In this document: positions 8,661-17,859 of the stretch, piece by piece
Numbering within the stretch: position 1 is the first letter of the stretch
Layout: each line of letters opens with the position of its first letter
IMG/VR virus record: IMGVR_UViG_3300030012_000908
Span: 1 to 26,380 of that record
Source of the DNA: a virus
Length of the DNA stretch: 26,380 nt
Direction: 5' to 3' (one strand)
Position numbers and translations under genes: made by a program
The notes under the pieces: model-generated
Database searches by the model: none
What the model saw: only the letters and a program-made list of their open reading frames with translations
What the model was told of the DNA's origin: nothing

Positions 8661-11600
8661 TTATTCAAAAGTTGCAATTGTTCTTGTAACAACTGTTCCC
8701 TCTATATTTATTTTAACTTTTATGTTACCGTCAGCTGAATCCATATAAATTGACGATTTACCTTCATCTGGATTTGGTGGTGTTGAAATTGCATTCAAAG
8801 TTAATACGTTATCTAATTCTAATACATCTTGAACTTGAGCCTTACCAGCAATGTCTATTTTATAAGCTGTATCTGGGTTTGTTGTTCCAACACCTACGGT
8901 TTTTTGTAAGTGTATTTGTCCAGCACTACCATCTAAAGTAATATAAGGCGTGTGACCACCTGACCCATCATCACATCTAAAAACAATATCCTCATCATCT
9001 ACAGTTTGTACAATCTGTAAAGTGCCATTAAAGTTTTCTATATTAGAGTTTGTTCCATTATGATATATTCTTAAATCATTAGATGTTCCAAGTCTTAGCT
9101 CTATGGTATCTAAAAATCTAACGTTTTTCTCAAAAATAGTTTGTGTAACACTACCATCTAATTTGAAATAAGTTGTAACTCCTCCGCTTCCGTCATCACT
9201 TTGAAAAATAATATCTTTATCATCAGCTGCGTTTCTAATATATAAATCGCCTGTAAAATTTCTAATAAAACTATTACTACCATCGTGTTTAATTTTTAAA
9301 TCAAGACCAGTACCCCACATAGATTCTACACTATCTTGATGTAATACATTTACAAAAAATCTATTTAAAACTTCACTACCATCTAATTTAAAATAAGTAG
9401 CAACACCTCCACTACTATTATCACATTCAAATATTATATCTTTGTCGTTAGCATTTTGCCTTATAGTTAAATCACCAGTTTCATTTATAATAAAACTTTG
9501 AATAGTATTATGTAATAATTGCAAATCATTTCCATTTCCTACTAATAAATATACGTTGTCTATAATTTTTAAATTTTTTGAAAACTCTACTCTTGAATTT
9601 CCACCATCTAGTCTAAGATACTCTGTTATCCCTCCACTTCCGTCATCTGATTTGAATATTATATCACCATCATTTGTGTGGTTTATAATTTCTAAATTTC
9701 CAGTTGCATTTTCTATAAAAGTATTCGTGCCATTATGATAAATACCCATGTTATTGCCATTCCCCAAATACAACGCTTCACCAGTAACAATTTGTATATT
9801 TCCATTTACTTGCAGCTTTTCTCCACTATCAGTTGTTGTTCCAATAAGTACGTTACCTCCATTAAAATAAGAACTACCATCAGCGTTTAATTTAACATTT
9901 TGATTGCTACCAGAATAAATACTAAATGCCTTGTGGTCTCTGTGAAATCTAAATCTATTATCTGAGCCAGTTTTATCTCTTGTGATCCACAAATCTGAAT
10001 TAGCTACACCAGCTCCAGTATTACTATCACCAGTTGATAGAAACCAATTACCTCCATTAGTGTTAAAATTAATAGCTGCATATCTAATTGTTGAATTATT
10101 ATCTTTTATAAGAATTATTGGGTTATCTGATTCTACTCTTAGTTTATCACCATTGTCACTTGTTGTACCTATAAGAACGTTTCCAGAAGATTTAATTCTC
10201 ATTGCCTCACTAAAACTACCATTTAAAAATATTTTATCACCTCCAATAAAATTTAATGTTCTTGTATCATTACTAATAGTTGCGAAATTAGATTCATTTC
10301 TAATAGAAAAATTGACAGTATCACCAGTATCACCAAGATATATGTATTGCGTTGCAGTTAAAGTATTAAAGACTTCAACTTCACCACTATCATCTATTTG
10401 TAACCTTGTATGTTGTGTGCCACCTAGACTTGCAGCTTCCTTAATTTGCAGACGCCCACTAGAATCTATTTGCATATTCCAAAGTTGCCCAGTTCCACTT
10501 CTATATATTTTAAAATTAGGTGCAGATGAATTTTGTACTAAAACATCCCCTGTAACATCTAATTTATTTCCACTATCAGTTGTTGTTCCAATGAGTAGGT
10601 TTCCATTATGTAACAACCTCATGTGTTCTACACTTCCTGAATCATTTTGCCATTTAAACCCTCTTTGACCTTGTAAAGTTGCTGTATTAGCAAAACCAAA
10701 ACTTGTTAAAAAATCTGTATTAGCATCAGCTCTTATTCCAGTTCCATAACCTAAAGCAATTTGTCTTTGTGTTCCAAATGTTAATCTTATGTTACCAGCA
10801 ACTTCTAAAGCTTCATTAGGACTTGTCGTTCCAATACCTACGCCAGTACCACCTGAATTCAAAACTATGTTTTTACCACCAACACTTCTTAAACCAATAT
10901 AAGTACTTTCATTGTCAATAAATCCACTACCAGTTAAAGTTGCACTTGTTAATCTTAAATTCCCATTAACACTAAGTTTATCACCAAAACTACTCGTTGT
11001 TCCAATTAGTAGGTTACCTGCATTAGTTATCCTAGCAAGTTCTGTACTAGCAAAGTTTTTAAATTTAATTGGCTCACCAGTTGCAGCTGGTTTAAAAGCA
11101 TCAGCCATTGAATCACCAGTTACTATTGCATCACCAACAACATGTAGCTTCTCTGTGGGATTTGCAACACCAATTCCTACGTTATTTGCCTCTACATTTC
11201 CACCAGCATCGACACCTAAAAGAATATTAGAGCCGCTTGTAGCTTCATTATATATTCTTAAATCGTTACCAGCATGGTTAAAATCCCAAAAATTAGAGTT
11301 ATCAGCCCTTCCTAATCTTAATGATAAATTATTTCCATTCGGTGATATGCTTTGCAGCCTTGTTCCATTATTGTTTGTTGTTCCAATAAGTAGATTTCCG
11401 TCAGATGTTAAACGCATTAATTCACTTGACCCATTTTTAAACATATAATTTCCAACATCACCTATAAAAAGATTAACACTTCCTAGTAAAATACTACCAT
11501 AAGCGCCATTAGACGTATGTCTGAATCTAGCAACTCCAGAATCAGCATTCCCATAAACTTCTAAAGCATTATTTGGACTTGCTGCATTTCCAATAGTTAT

Positions 11601-14600
11601 ACTATTTGTTGTTGTGTTTCCATTATCAGTAACCTCTTGCAATGTATCAGCCGAGCCAACTTGAGTGTCAACGTAAGCCTTTATGCTTTCACTTGTTGCT
11701 AAACTTGTAGCACTTGCAGTTCCAAAACTATCATCATCTATATAACTACTAATCGCAACACTTCCAGAATCAATACTTGTTGCTGTAATATCAAAGCCAC
11801 CAACTGTTCCTTTTGTTTTGTTTTGGTATTGAGCCGCTAAGTCTTCTTGATTTATTAAAATATACGACTCTTCAACTATGTCATCAAATAAAGGTAGAGA
11901 TTGAACACTAATGGATGTATCACTTGCTCCTTGATTTGCTGTTGCAGTTAATTTAATTATTTGATCTTCATTATCATTAATAACATTAAAAGTATCACCA
12001 GCTTTAATAACAGCACTTCCAATAGCATTAATAGGCAAAGATGTTAGTGTTTTTTGTTCTTTTATTGTGATATGTGTTATGTTACCATTAAATGTTGTGC
12101 CAGCTTGAAATTTTATTTGTGTATTTCCTAAACACTGAACATATAAACTATAATTTCCACTTGTACTAACAACAACAGTTGAACTTGTTGTTCCAGCCTT
12201 TACTGACAAAGTTCCAGATGTAACTTCAACTTTAAAATTAATTTGATATGTTTTTTCTATTTCTAATACAGATTGAACTAAATCACTTGTTGAACCAGTT
12301 GCGGAAAATTTAGCTTTACTTTCAGTTGTATCTATTGTCCAACCAGTTCCCAAAGACCAATCACTTGCTGTTGTAAAGTTACCATTGACAGCAACGTTAC
12401 TTCCAACTGATGGGACTGGCTGTCTTAAATAAGCTATTGGACTATTCTGAGCTAAAGATTGACTTATTTTATTTTGCAATGGTGCGGAACTAGCTTGTGC
12501 ATTAACTTGAGAACCCCCAAGATTTCCCATGTTATTTGTTTGGGTTGTTGTTGTTGGTGTGTTTCTTATTATTTGATAACCCTCATAGTCCCATTCATCA
12601 AGCAAAGTATAAAAAGCACCTCTTCTGAAAAAATATTCTGGGTCAGTTGCATTGCTTCTTAGTTCTCTTAATTTACCAATAGGATTTACATATCTTGGTC
12701 TTGTTGTTGTTCCTCCACCAGTTGCAGAGCCAGTTTCATTTTTATTTGCAACTCCAACACCTAATCTCATTGTTGGACTTATTGTTATTTTTGTTTGTCC
12801 ACTTAAAAATTCGTCAATTAATAATTGTGTAAATGTTTTTGTTCCAGATAAGGTTCCTCTACCCCATAAACCATTCGGATTTGTATTAACAAAATTTGTT
12901 CCATTATCAACTTGCAAACTACTTCTGGCATAACTAACAGAATCACCCCATAAAAGAGTTCCCATGTCAAAAATTTCACTATTTGCTTGAGATGTAGTTG
13001 TTGTATTATTATATACATTGAGTGTTGAACCATAACTTGAGCTTTGTCCACTTTTTATAAGCTGTAATTTACCAACAAATGGTGAGCTAGTGTCAAATTG
13101 TATGTCATCAGTTGCTGTTCCAGCATTAAAACCAGCTGGATTTACAGTATTACTTGTTACCAAAATTCCTTGGGGGTCTTGTAACGTATTTGACCAGCTT
13201 ATTGTTCCAGAAAAATTTCCAGACCCAGCTGGAACTTGGATTCTAACATTCGGATTTCTCATTCTTTGTGGCACTCCACCATATCCAGAATTGTTTAAAT
13301 AAAAAGAACCTGGATTTGAACCGCTTGTTCCATAGTCTTCAATGTCTATAAAAAATGACCATGCACCATCCATTGTTATTGGATTTCCACTAGAATCCTC
13401 AAATGGAATAGATGCTTCAAAACCTACATAAGCTGTTTCAGTTATATTAAATGACCTAACAACATATCTTGGCGAAGTGGCACCCAAAGGCGACCAGTTT
13501 GCAGCATCAACCCAAAAATATTTTCCAGTTGATGTTCTATATTGTAAATAAAAATAAGATAAATTTCCAGCTCCGTCATCTTGGACAGCATAAAAATTAA
13601 ATTTGATTTGCATCCACCAACCTTGAGTTGGACTAAAAGAAGAACTTGCTTGACTTAAATCCCATGCCCAGTTTGTTGGTATTGACACAAATAAAAAATC
13701 AGCATTAGAAGGATTGTTCAATGTTCCTTGAAAAACCTCTTGACTTGTTGCATTAGGACCAAATGGAAAACCACCAAACTTATTTTCTCCAGTAAATGAT
13801 AAAAAGTTTGCATTTATCTGTTTTAATATTGGTAGATAATTATACTTAGTTCCAACTAATTTACTGATTCTAGTATTCGAAATAGTTTGAAAGTATCTAG
13901 TCCAAAATGTGCTACCAGTATGATTTTGACTACCAGAGAAAGAGCCGCTTTCATTATATATTCTAGAATTAATATTTATTGGTGCATCTATTAAACCAGT
14001 TTCAGCTGTAATATATTCTGGAATTTGAACTATGTAAAAACGGTGTTTCCAATAAGTAATTCTAGCACCCCAATGCCTCAACAATTCTTTTAAAACATTA
14101 TAACAATTTTCTGGATAAAAAACATCTTGATCGTCTTTTGTGTGAAACATAGAAACAACACATTTTGTTTTTTCTAAAGGGTCTTGGCTTTGACCAAGAG
14201 AATCCATATCTCCATTATACCAATTAACAGAAGTTGATATTTTATAATCTTGAGTAGCACCATTAGATGTTAAGGCGGCTCCACTTTTTCTCAAAATTTC
14301 TCTAAACCAGAAAATGTAAGACGCTGGTCCAAAATACATGTTTTTTACAACATAATTCCCTTGCACATTGTTTTCAGACAATGGGTCACTTAAATCTACA
14401 AAATCAATATTTTTTAGCAAAGACAAACCATCAACAAAAACAAGTTCTTGAACATAAGGAAATGATTTATCTTGACCCTCACCAATATCCATTAACATAA
14501 AGCCAGACCACAAAGGAGCCACTGAGGCATATCCAGATTGACTCTCTCTGTAAATATGCACATAGATTTGTCTTTCTTGAAAATCTGTTCTTAAAGAATC

Positions 14601-14831
14601 AATAAATTGTGATTCGATTACATTCTCAACTAAAAAAGGTATTCTACATTGTGAAGTTAATATAGGTGAGAATCTATCTTCGGTATCAGTTTCATATTGA
14701 ATTACTGGTCCTCCTTCTCCTAATCGTTTTTCATAAGCTGGGTCTGTTTGACCAAATACCCATATTTCCAAATAATAGTCATAGCCATTATTGCTTTTAT
14801 ATGACGAAAAATATTTTTTTCCAAAAGACAT
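8661..14831 (-). CDS. Giant tail tip/fibre protein, 2056 aa
   Basis: Receptor-contacting tail protein and largest gene of the window. The N-terminal part (about 1-300) is mixed alpha/beta, as in tail-tip or baseplate attachment domains. Residues about 300-800 are rich in Gly/Ser/Thr/Asn with aromatic patches, suggesting beta-rich, possibly carbohydrate-binding, modules. From about residue 1080 the protein becomes a repetitive shaft. One motif, NxLIGTTxDxGxKLxVxGx and variants (such as VGIGTTSPNE), occurs about eight times, and a 75-residue unit occurs four times near residues 1680-1980. The C-terminus (PPNPDEGKSSIYMDSADG) resembles fibre ends. I see no S74-type self-cleaving chaperone. It shares TAATG with the tape measure gene. 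No separate Dit or Tal gene is visible, so the N-terminus may replace them. Confidence 0.85.
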   Translation of the reverse strand: MSFGKKYFSSYKSNNGYDYYLEIWVFGQTDPAYEKRLGEGGPVIQYETDTEDRFSPILTSQCRIPFLVENVIESQFIDSLRTDFQERQIYVHIYRESQSGYASVAPLWSGFMLMDIGEGQDKSFPYVQELVFVDGLSLLKNIDFVDLSDPLSENNVQGNYVVKNMYFGPASYIFWFREILRKSGAALTSNGATQDYKISTSVNWYNGDMDSLGQSQDPLEKTKCVVSMFHTKDDQDVFYPENCYNVLKELLRHWGARITYWKHRFYIVQIPEYITAETGLIDAPININSRIYNESGSFSGSQNHTGSTFWTRYFQTISNTRISKLVGTKYNYLPILKQINANFLSFTGENKFGGFPFGPNATSQEVFQGTLNNPSNADFLFVSIPTNWAWDLSQASSSFSPTQGWWMQIKFNFYAVQDDGAGNLSYFYLQYRTSTGKYFWVDAANWSPLGATSPRYVVRSFNITETAYVGFEASIPFEDSSGNPITMDGAWSFFIDIEDYGTSGSNPGSFYLNNSGYGGVPQRMRNPNVRIQVPAGSGNFSGTISWSNTLQDPQGILVTSNTVNPAGFNAGTATDDIQFDTSSPFVGKLQLIKSGQSSSYGSTLNVYNNTTTTSQANSEIFDMGTLLWGDSVSYARSSLQVDNGTNFVNTNPNGLWGRGTLSGTKTFTQLLIDEFLSGQTKITISPTMRLGVGVANKNETGSATGGGTTTRPRYVNPIGKLRELRSNATDPEYFFRRGAFYTLLDEWDYEGYQIIRNTPTTTTQTNNMGNLGGSQVNAQASSAPLQNKISQSLAQNSPIAYLRQPVPSVGSNVAVNGNFTTASDWSLGTGWTIDTTESKAKFSATGSTSDLVQSVLEIEKTYQINFKVEVTSGTLSVKAGTTSSTVVVSTSGNYSLYVQCLGNTQIKFQAGTTFNGNITHITIKEQKTLTSLPINAIGSAVIKAGDTFNVINDNEDQIIKLTATANQGASDTSISVQSLPLFDDIVEESYILINQEDLAAQYQNKTKGTVGGFDITATSIDSGSVAISSYIDDDSFGTASATSLATSESIKAYVDTQVGSADTLQEVTDNGNTTTNSITIGNAASPNNALEVYGNADSGVARFRHTSNGAYGSILLGSVNLFIGDVGNYMFKNGSSELMRLTSDGNLLIGTTNNNGTRLQSISPNGNNLSLRLGRADNSNFWDFNHAGNDLRIYNEATSGSNILLGVDAGGNVEANNVGIGVANPTEKLHVVGDAIVTGDSMADAFKPAATGEPIKFKNFASTELARITNAGNLLIGTTSSFGDKLSVNGNLRLTSATLTGSGFIDNESTYIGLRSVGGKNIVLNSGGTGVGIGTTSPNEALEVAGNIRLTFGTQRQIALGYGTGIRADANTDFLTSFGFANTATLQGQRGFKWQNDSGSVEHMRLLHNGNLLIGTTTDSGNKLDVTGDVLVQNSSAPNFKIYRSGTGQLWNMQIDSSGRLQIKEAASLGGTQHTRLQIDDSGEVEVFNTLTATQYIYLGDTGDTVNFSIRNESNFATISNDTRTLNFIGGDKIFLNGSFSEAMRIKSSGNVLIGTTSDNGDKLRVESDNPIILIKDNNSTIRYAAINFNTNGGNWFLSTGDSNTGAGVANSDLWITRDKTGSDNRFRFHRDHKAFSIYSGSNQNVKLNADGSSYFNGGNVLIGTTTDSGEKLQVNGNIQIVTGEALYLGNGNNMGIYHNGTNTFIENATGNLEIINHTNDGDIIFKSDDGSGGITEYLRLDGGNSRVEFSKNLKIIDNVYLLVGNGNDLQLLHNTIQSFIINETGDLTIRQNANDKDIIFECDNSSGGVATYFKLDGSEVLNRFFVNVLHQDSVESMWGTGLDLKIKHDGSNSFIRNFTGDLYIRNAADDKDIIFQSDDGSGGVTTYFKLDGSVTQTIFEKNVRFLDTIELRLGTSNDLRIYHNGTNSNIENFNGTLQIVQTVDDEDIVFRCDDGSGGHTPYITLDGSAGQIHLQKTVGVGTTNPDTAYKIDIAGKAQVQDVLELDNVLTLNAISTPPNPDEGKSSIYMDSADGNIKVKINIEGTVVTRTIATFE
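8895..9795 (-). repeat. Four tandem 225-bp (75-residue) repeats in the fibre gene
   Basis: The block DDGSGG (or DNSSGG) followed by a Y-x-LDGS segment recurs with its first Asp codon ending at plus-strand anchor positions 8955, 9180, 9405 and 9630. That is exactly 225 bases apart each time. Each unit also contains a NDLxIxHNGTNSxI-like strand and a TGDLxI...DIIF strand. The protein is conserved while DNA identity is only partial, so the copies are old and kept in register. Repeat edges are approximate. Confidence 0.85.
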
Positions 14832-16696: not shown

Positions 16697-17355
16697 TTAT
16701 TTAGTTTTGTGTTCCGATAATTTTTTAATATACTCAGCTTTCTCTTTCAACTTTTTGTAATCTATTTCTTTTTGTTTCTTATCCCACTCAAATTCAATCA
16801 GATCAGTTGGCTTTAACTTTTTACCTTTTGCTAATTGTATGTTCAATAACAATGTTGTTTGCCATCTTGTTCTTTCCCAGTTTGCCCTTTCTTTTATATT
16901 TTCTATCTCATAAAAACCATCCAACTTATTCCAAAAATGTTTAGGTAGGTAGTCATAAAACTCATCAACTCCCATTCCTAAATATCCAAAAGCAATTTTT
17001 TCAAGTTTACGCCAAGAAAGTTTTTCTTTTACTTCTTGGCTTTTTGCTTTTTTTCAGTATCACCGCCCATTTGCTCTGTAAGAATTTCCATAGCCCTTGC
17101 AATAGAATCATAATCATTATCTATCAAGTCAGCCAAGTCGTCTATTGTTATTTTGCATTCTTGCTTTGCAGCTCTGTAACCATCCTCTATTCCGCAATAA
17201 ATTAAATTCAAAGCATTGTCTAAAGTCATATTGTTACCTAGTTTATCTAAATCTTGCAAAGTTGTATTAGTTTTAGATGAATATTTTCTTAAGGCGTTAA
17301 AACCAAATTTAATTGGATGTTTTTTATTATCTATTTTTATAAAAGTATAATTCAT
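16697..17355 (-). CDS. Tail assembly chaperone GT fusion (by -1 frameshift)
   Basis: The downstream frame stays open above its first ATG (16975) up to a TGA just before the slippery site. That upstream part encodes a good protein (KEKLSWRKLEKIAFGYLG) which continues into GVDEFYDYLPKHFWNKLDGFYE, the typical T-domain signature. A -1 shift at the A AAA AAG heptamer (17047-17053) joins 103 residues of G to 116 of T, giving about 219 residues. Fusions of this type coat the tape measure protein and recruit tail tube subunits. Starting independently at ATG 16975 would cut off the most conserved-looking part, so the fusion is the better model. Confidence 0.85.
17011..17053 (-). promoter_or_regulatory. 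Programmed -1 ribosomal frameshift signal
   Basis: Slippery heptamer A AAA AAG (17053-17047), in the 0 frame at Lys102-Lys103 of G and the same sequence as in E. coli dnaX. It is followed by a 6-base spacer and a hairpin with perfect 8-bp arms GCCAAGAA (17040-17033) and TTCTTGGC (17018-17011). The stop codon of the 0 frame (17031-17029) lies in the loop. Confidence 0.85.
17029..17355 (-). CDS. Tail assembly chaperone G
   Basis: 108 residues, the unshifted product. It is mostly helical after an N-terminal strand pair (YTFIKIDNKKHPIKFGFNAL) and ends in a Lys-rich tail, as G-type chaperones often do. It lies between the major tail protein and the tape measure gene, the invariant place of this gene in long-tailed phages. 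Its start codon lies at the end of a 12-base arm of an inverted repeat (17355-17366), so translation may be regulated by RNA structure. Confidence 0.8.
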   Translation of the reverse strand: MNYTFIKIDNKKHPIKFGFNALRKYSSKTNTTLQDLDKLGNNMTLDNALNLIYCGIEDGYRAAKQECKITIDDLADLIDNDYDSIARAMEILTEQMGGDTEKKQKAKK

Positions 17356-17414
17356 TTTTGTTTAGTTTAAAAGGCTCATAGCTAAGACACTAAACAAAAA
17401 TAGTGTCAAAGCTA
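17355..17414 (-). promoter_or_regulatory. Competing hairpins in the leader of the tail chaperone gene
   Basis: The minus-strand RNA can form hairpin 1, with 5-bp stem TAGCT/AGCTA (17414-17410 with 17383-17379), a TT/TT internal loop, 7-bp stem GACACTA/TAGTGTC (17407-17401 with 17392-17386) and an 8-base loop. It can alternatively form hairpin 2, perfect 12-bp arms TTTTTGTTTAGT (17400-17389) and ACTAAACAAAAA (17366-17355), whose last base is the A of the start codon of G. The two share bases 17389-17392 and so exclude each other. Neither has a U tail, so a simple terminator is unlikely. Confidence 0.6.
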
Positions 17415-17427
17415 ATCACCTAAATTA

Positions 17428-17859
17428 TTAAGATACTGTTTGAGTTAAACTTCCAGTTCCCTCTATACTAAGAGAATAAGTTGCAGTGTCCTCTGTACCT
17501 CCAGTAAAGCTCATTGATGTAATAAAACCACTACCAGCATAACTAACATCACTGGTTGAGGCAGTATCACCAAATATAAAATCAACTTTTAATCTATTTG
17601 CTAATAGATTAGTTTGCAATAAATCGTCAGCTCCATTTGTTAAAGCCGAACCACTTGCATCAGTCCAAGCGTATGCACCATCAATATCAACTGAGAAATC
17701 TCTGACACCCTCTAATATTTCTTTAAATCCAGCACTTTCTTTGTTAGTAATTTCTCTTGGTGAATGATTGAAGTTTAACGTACAGTTTTGAGCAAAGGCA
17801 ACAAGATTTGTTGTTCCAGAGCTATAAACTTTTATTTCTGTTCCATTTAAAATAGCCAT
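17428..17859 (-). CDS. Major tail protein (tail tube subunit)
   Basis: 143 residues. The N-terminus (AILNGTEIKVYSSGTTNLVAF, then CTLNFNHSPREITNKESAGFKEILEGVRDFSVDIDGAYAW) and C-terminus (GSGFITSMSFTGGTEDTATYSLSIEGTGSL) match TP901-1/phage major tail proteins with the beta-sandwich tube fold. It sits directly upstream of the chaperone genes. The leader is A/T-rich without a Shine-Dalgarno sequence. A hairpin begins 13 bases after its stop and may stabilise this presumably abundant message. Confidence 0.9.
   Translation of the reverse strand: MAILNGTEIKVYSSGTTNLVAFAQNCTLNFNHSPREITNKESAGFKEILEGVRDFSVDIDGAYAWTDASGSALTNGADDLLQTNLLANRLKVDFIFGDTASTSDVSYAGSGFITSMSFTGGTEDTATYSLSIEGTGSLTQTVS

Follow-up and report, generated by a model that had tools for sequence, protein, structure and literature searches.

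The window examined here, a marine phage record of 26,380 bases analysed at its full length, carries a siphophage head-tail module on its minus strand with the gene order terminase, portal, capsid, tail terminator, tube protein, chaperone, T-like open reading frame (ORF) and tape measure. The tail tube (major tail) protein gene (17428..17859, minus strand) matched phrog_1407 (E 3e-25) and Pfam Phage_tail_2 (E 8e-10, above its cut-off) and ends in a stop codon at 17430-17428. A gap of 72 nt separates this stop from the ATG, at 17355, of a G-like tail assembly chaperone gene (17029..17355, minus strand), the presumed target of the element described below, which matched phrog_2115 tail protein (E 4e-7) and showed a weak match to Phage_TAC_12, below its cut-off. 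After the chaperone gene lies the T-like ORF (16975-16697, minus strand).

In the chaperone frame, a slippery A AAA AAG at 17053-17047 (minus strand) is followed by a hairpin of GCCAAGAA (17040-17033) with UUCUUGGC (17018-17011), and the next ORF, starting at 16975, is open in the -1 frame across both slippery site and hairpin. The region 17053-17011 is predicted to direct a lambda-like G/GT programmed -1 frameshift, and the predicted site is also kept in relatives. After the tape measure gene, a 2056-residue ORF (8661-14831, minus strand) with many near-repeated GNLLIGTT-like units probably encodes a tail-tip or fibre protein.

Three queries of the named phages in INPHARED returned no chaperone relative, and the tube protein matched none but distant named phages, mostly phages of Firmicutes. 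The sole cellular relative was one Flavobacteriales MAG contig, and 51 further genomes of that MAG's family yielded no relative. Flavobacteriales are therefore the most likely hosts of this phage group, as judged from that one match.

Overlapping repeats in the tube-chaperone gap

A sequence-only reading had placed two overlapping inverted repeats in the gap between these genes, and both were recovered on the minus strand, as a hairpin (17421-17372) and a 13-base complementarity (17389-17401 with 17354-17366). The hairpin agrees with the described 5 + 7 bp structure with a symmetric internal loop: in folding, P2a pairs UAGCU (17410..17414) with AGCUA (17379..17383), P2b pairs GACACUA (17401..17407) with UAGUGUC (17386..17392), and a UU/UU internal loop separates them. 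An outer stem had gone unmentioned; this stem, P1, positioned from the sequence, begins 6 nt after the tube-gene stop codon and pairs AGG (17419..17421) with CCU (17372..17374). At the P1/P2 junction of many subfamilies, including the window (17422-17372, minus strand), there is a small symmetric purine-rich internal loop (UGA/UGA, GGA/AAA, GA/AA), as in tandem G-A pairs.

The 8-nt apical loop, UUUUUGUU (17393..17400), forms the core of a 13-nt anti-leader (17389..17401) complementary to the chaperone leader (17354..17366), which runs from position -11 into the start codon and takes in its first two bases. The long repeat has perfect arms 22 nt apart, as had been described, and covers the leader; its arms, however, measure 13 rather than 12 nt and reach the second, not just the first, base of the ATG. 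It is the longest perfect inverted repeat of the window among repeats within 60 nt. Bases 17389-17392 of the P2b 3' arm are shared with the anti-leader as had been noticed, and 17401 is shared as well.

Comparison with shuffled sequence had been proposed as a check, and the minus-strand fold proved far more stable (-23.3 kcal/mol versus -11.3 +/- 2.6; z -4.57), with none of 200 shuffles as good; the plus-strand fold was weaker (z -2.77). The window's best fold also pairs the region of the tube-gene stop with chaperone codons 2-4, a contact that was set aside as it is not kept in L001 and others.

Conservation of the hairpin and of leader pairing

Loci were collected by scanning with the chaperone and with alignments headed by various relatives, which gave 245 loci with a located chaperone start and 158 distinct upstream regions; members of the L270 subfamily and L394 came from an additional scan. 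The set used for statistics comprised 157 distinct relatives in 19 sequence clusters; L107 was left out as its stop was misassigned by script, and its sequence shows the same hairpin. The gap from tube stop to chaperone start was 67-105 nt in 157 of the 158 upstream regions, L107 being the exception. The first paired base lies a median of 6 nt past the tube stop (5-95%: 2-14), though the end of the tube gene varies. When L051 is compared with the window, the start of the tube protein is very alike, yet hairpin, loop and leader are of a different type, and element and chaperone thus seem to move as a unit, separately from the tube gene.

Covariation in relatives, the other check that had been set, was strongly positive. 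Within the window subfamily (46 distinct rows), 99.6% of cells were paired and 7 of the 20 pairs, 8 of which belong to the loop:leader helix, had changed on both sides. Shuffled alignments never did as well (0 of 500), whether judged by pairing, double changes or covariation score, and slid controls were far lower. Changes on both sides are seen in P1, P2a and P2b: P1 is kept in relatives with a GC to AU double change in L069, L071 and L080, both arms of P2a show UA/GC double changes, and P2b shows CG/UA and GC/AU double changes. RNAalifold analysis of two other large groups again recovered stems, with 5-6 compensated pairs each. The three stems contained 254 G-U cells and no A-C cells, which identifies what is conserved as mRNA-strand RNA, and in the loop:leader helix the G-U gain was 70 versus an A-C gain of 16. 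A DNA-level inverted repeat, such as an operator or recombination site, is ruled out, as the G-U pairs follow the mRNA sense. The earlier suggestion of an mRNA-strand RNA element directed at the start of the chaperone gene is supported, and the hairpin and loop:leader structure is strongly supported.

In 157 relatives the apical loop can pair with the leader bases that immediately precede the chaperone ATG, and this complementarity is conserved in all 19 clusters while the sequences themselves differ completely between subfamilies. In the window subfamily the loop and leader sequences are mostly fixed; where L069, L071 and L080 changed from UUUAG/CUAAA to UUAGG (or UUGGG)/CCUAA, pairing was retained. 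Loop UUUUUUCAGGU is found with leader ACUUGAAAAAA in L049, UUGUUAUUGAG with CUCAAUAACAA in L050, UGUUAUUGG with CCAAUAACA in L051, UCUUUUCUGA with UCAGAAAAGA in L052, CUUGUUUGU with ACAAACAAG in L177, UUCGGUGAGU with ACUUACUGAA in L270 and UUCGGUAGAU with AUUUAUCGAA in L394, a neighbour of L270.

The mean loop:leader pairing score was 22.8, whereas 955 other genes from these loci averaged 12.8, and 97% of elements scored at least 18 compared with 6.7% of those other genes. Permuting leaders over the 19 clusters never reached the observed sum (0 of 100,000). Leaders were also swapped among nine representatives, hand-chosen for unlike loops although L050/L051 and L270/L394 are still related, and the identity alone of 362,880 permutations reached the true pairing, whether pair score or duplex energy was used; the best non-identity permutation (210 versus 212) exchanges related neighbours or nearly so. 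Other genes of these loci do not share the arrangement: a loose hairpin-plus-loop test was passed by 8 of 873 of them, and at least two of these cases lie where the gene following the chaperone begins. In 2.9 million viral contigs, a search for exact matches to the window-type pattern found 74 cases before this chaperone gene as recognised by a strict motif, 15 more in which that motif had missed the chaperone, and otherwise nine scattered unrelated matches with no start codon after them.

In the L052 group the main complement lies approximately 14-30 nt upstream of the AUG, with a second copy near it. The leaders of L052, L094 and related loci possess two loop-complementary stretches, CAGAAAAGA further upstream and ACUUAGAAAA adjoining the AUG, which are perhaps two registers of a switch. 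L153 keeps only the AUG-adjoining stretch and L154 only the upstream kind.

This co-evolution also bears on readings in which the hairpin serves the tube gene or the message at large, as a terminator, an mRNA stabiliser, a processing site or a readthrough or frameshift signal. The position of a stable hairpin immediately behind a gene for which high expression is expected would suit such roles, but none of them needs a loop that co-evolves with the leader, and the processing site or stabiliser considered earlier likewise leaves that co-evolution unexplained; we regard the whole group as extremely improbable. An intrinsic terminator was rejected on the lack of a U-tract and of any call in a terminator scan. 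Readthrough or frameshifting of the tube gene was rejected as well, as in the window all three frames close within approximately 20 nt of the stop, before the upper stem, and the spacer occurs in all three phases in relatives and is not kept modulo 3.

A probable pseudoknot and its proposed effect on chaperone initiation

The repeats had been described as two mutually exclusive hairpins, which would make P2 the on state and the long hairpin the off state. The bases common to anti-leader and P2 are in keeping with such a strict alternative, as are L006-like relatives, in which the hairpin 5' strand repeats the leader's CUAAA, which puts hairpin and leader in competition for shared bases and would make strand exchange nearly symmetric. 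In nested folding, however, the long hairpin has a probability of about 1e-4 at a cost of about 7 kcal/mol and would therefore hardly form as a strict alternative. Moreover, in 148 of 157 relatives the leader complement falls inside the apical loop, allowing +/-3 nt, and in L049-, L175-, L190- and L192-type elements the anti-leader sits almost entirely in a long loop, 88-100% of it being left unpaired by the hairpin fold, so that exclusion is not needed. Strict exclusion was thus too strong a claim, and we consider it quite improbable.

With the leader complement placed in the apical loop, the hairpin need not be lost when loop and leader pair, and the two helices together would make a pseudoknot, which is the likely form of the element on the sequence comparisons above. 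In the window subfamily approximately 64% of the anti-leader is unpaired in the hairpin and the remainder overlaps the top of P2b, so that only the top 2-4 hairpin pairs would be traded. Loop:leader duplexes reach -8 to -15 kcal/mol in most types, and the window's 8 loop bases alone only -3.8 kcal/mol, therefore strand exchange into P2 would be needed there. The loop would accordingly act as a toehold, the leader displacing only the top pairs where the loop is short. A full P1 and P2 stack leaves a short linker to the leader, and opening of P1 may be needed.

Far more tube subunits than chaperones are needed in siphophage tails, with both genes on one message, and to our knowledge the setting of the tube:chaperone ratio in dsDNA phages is mostly unexplained. 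Flavobacteriales hosts do not use Shine-Dalgarno sequences. We propose that the element is probably a cis-acting translational brake that masks the A-rich initiation region of the chaperone gene. During transcription the stable hairpin would fold just after the tube-gene stop and expose its unpaired U-rich apical loop. Once the chaperone leader becomes available, the loop would capture 8-13 bases lying immediately before the AUG, often touching it, and so form the pseudoknot; in the window subfamily the leader would also displace the top 2-4 pairs of P2. The A-rich region used by Bacteroidetes ribosomes without a Shine-Dalgarno sequence would become hidden, and the chaperone would be initiated less often than the tube protein from the same message. 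The short linker, the weak pairing of the window's loop bases alone and the more distant main complement in the L052 group count against this reading.

Among the elements, the helix covers positions -10 to -4 in 84-88%, -3 in 77% and the A of the AUG in about a third. In Flavobacterium johnsoniae, A at -3, -6 and -12/-13 together with low structure around the start promote initiation (PMC6847099), and masking of start-proximal adenines should therefore lower chaperone synthesis. The reverse effect, in which the pseudoknot keeps the leader available close to the tube stop for ribosome entry or re-initiation, would draw on the element bridging stop and start codons and on pairing that could in principle support a standby site instead of repressing. 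It is highly unlikely in our view, as the helix covers the very adenines that promote initiation and structure at a start usually inhibits (PMC6847099).

Instead of a fixed brake, the element could be a gated switch, opened or locked either by ribosomes that reach the tube-gene stop or by a phage protein (the tube protein or the chaperone, for example), so that chaperone synthesis responds to tube translation or protein level. The first paired base, at its median distance from the tube stop, would be close enough for a ribosome terminating there to contact it, a full pseudoknot seems difficult to reconcile with P1, and T4 gene 32 provides a phage precedent for a protein-bound leader pseudoknot (PMC535899). 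The short distance may, on the other hand, reflect compactness only, and no protein- or ligand-like sequence core is conserved across subfamilies; gating in this broad sense is possible, if doubtful. A specific version, in which terminating ribosomes keep P1 open and free the linker so that the loop captures the leader, tying chaperone synthesis inversely to tube translation, appears rather unlikely; if true, it would be a switch of a new class, with tail stoichiometry wired into the mRNA without any protein.

With respect to the proposed brake, we infer that the pseudoknot forms in cells, that its sign is repressive and that it has a role in the tube:chaperone ratio; the earlier suggestion that the element could set this stoichiometry is plausible. 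A compact covarying RNA device is present at the tube/chaperone junction across a whole group of uncultured phages, and if its loop, evolving together with an A-rich leader, serves to conceal that leader, initiation would be tuned in a distinct manner.

Comparison with known systems

The cis-acting RNA is real and conserved, and apparently undescribed. Rfam at curated scores gave no match for the window or for 14 divergent loci, near-hits being noise far below gathering scores, in line with the earlier statement that no described element like it was known at this locus. Nor did a literature search of chiefly open-licence papers turn up a comparable element, which supports novelty only weakly.

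Two properties place the element among known kinds of control RNA. Pairing over the initiation region is conserved by covariation, as in leader-sequestering control RNAs, and the hairpin loop is complementary to a downstream strand with both helices kept in evolution, as in pseudoknots. In the E. coli rpsO (S15) leader a hairpin loop pairs beside the start codon, an alternative hairpin form exists and S15 traps the ribosome on the pseudoknot. The present element is alike in loop pairing next to the start and in its alternative hairpin, but has no sequence relation to rpsO and, as far as known, involves no ribosomal protein. In IncI/IncB plasmid repZ/repA control, the loop of an upstream hairpin pairs near the downstream start, translation of the upstream frame matters and an antisense RNA targets the loop. 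The pairing of an upstream loop close to a downstream start is alike; the plasmid pseudoknot, however, activates, which lends some precedent to the translation-aiding reading above, and for the present element an antisense RNA is not known.

Translational riboswitches with pseudoknot expression platforms likewise have their initiation region sequestered by upstream RNA, in contrast to which the element has neither ligand-pocket nucleotides conserved across subfamilies nor an Rfam match. A riboswitch was rejected on the absence of a conserved ligand-binding core, hardly any nucleotide being common to the subfamilies. The T4 gene 32 operator resembles the element as a pseudoknot upstream of a start codon in a phage mRNA, which in T4 lowers the translation of one gene, but differs in being a pseudoknot of approximately 28 nt far upstream of the ribosome site that serves as a binding nucleus for gp32 (PMC535899, PMC3014915). 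Here the predicted pseudoknot helix is the initiation region itself, lies between structural genes and has no known bound protein. The predicted architecture, a loop:leader pseudoknot at an initiation site, is thus of a known kind, and the family, its location and its co-evolving loop are new as far as open-licence papers and RNA libraries were checked.
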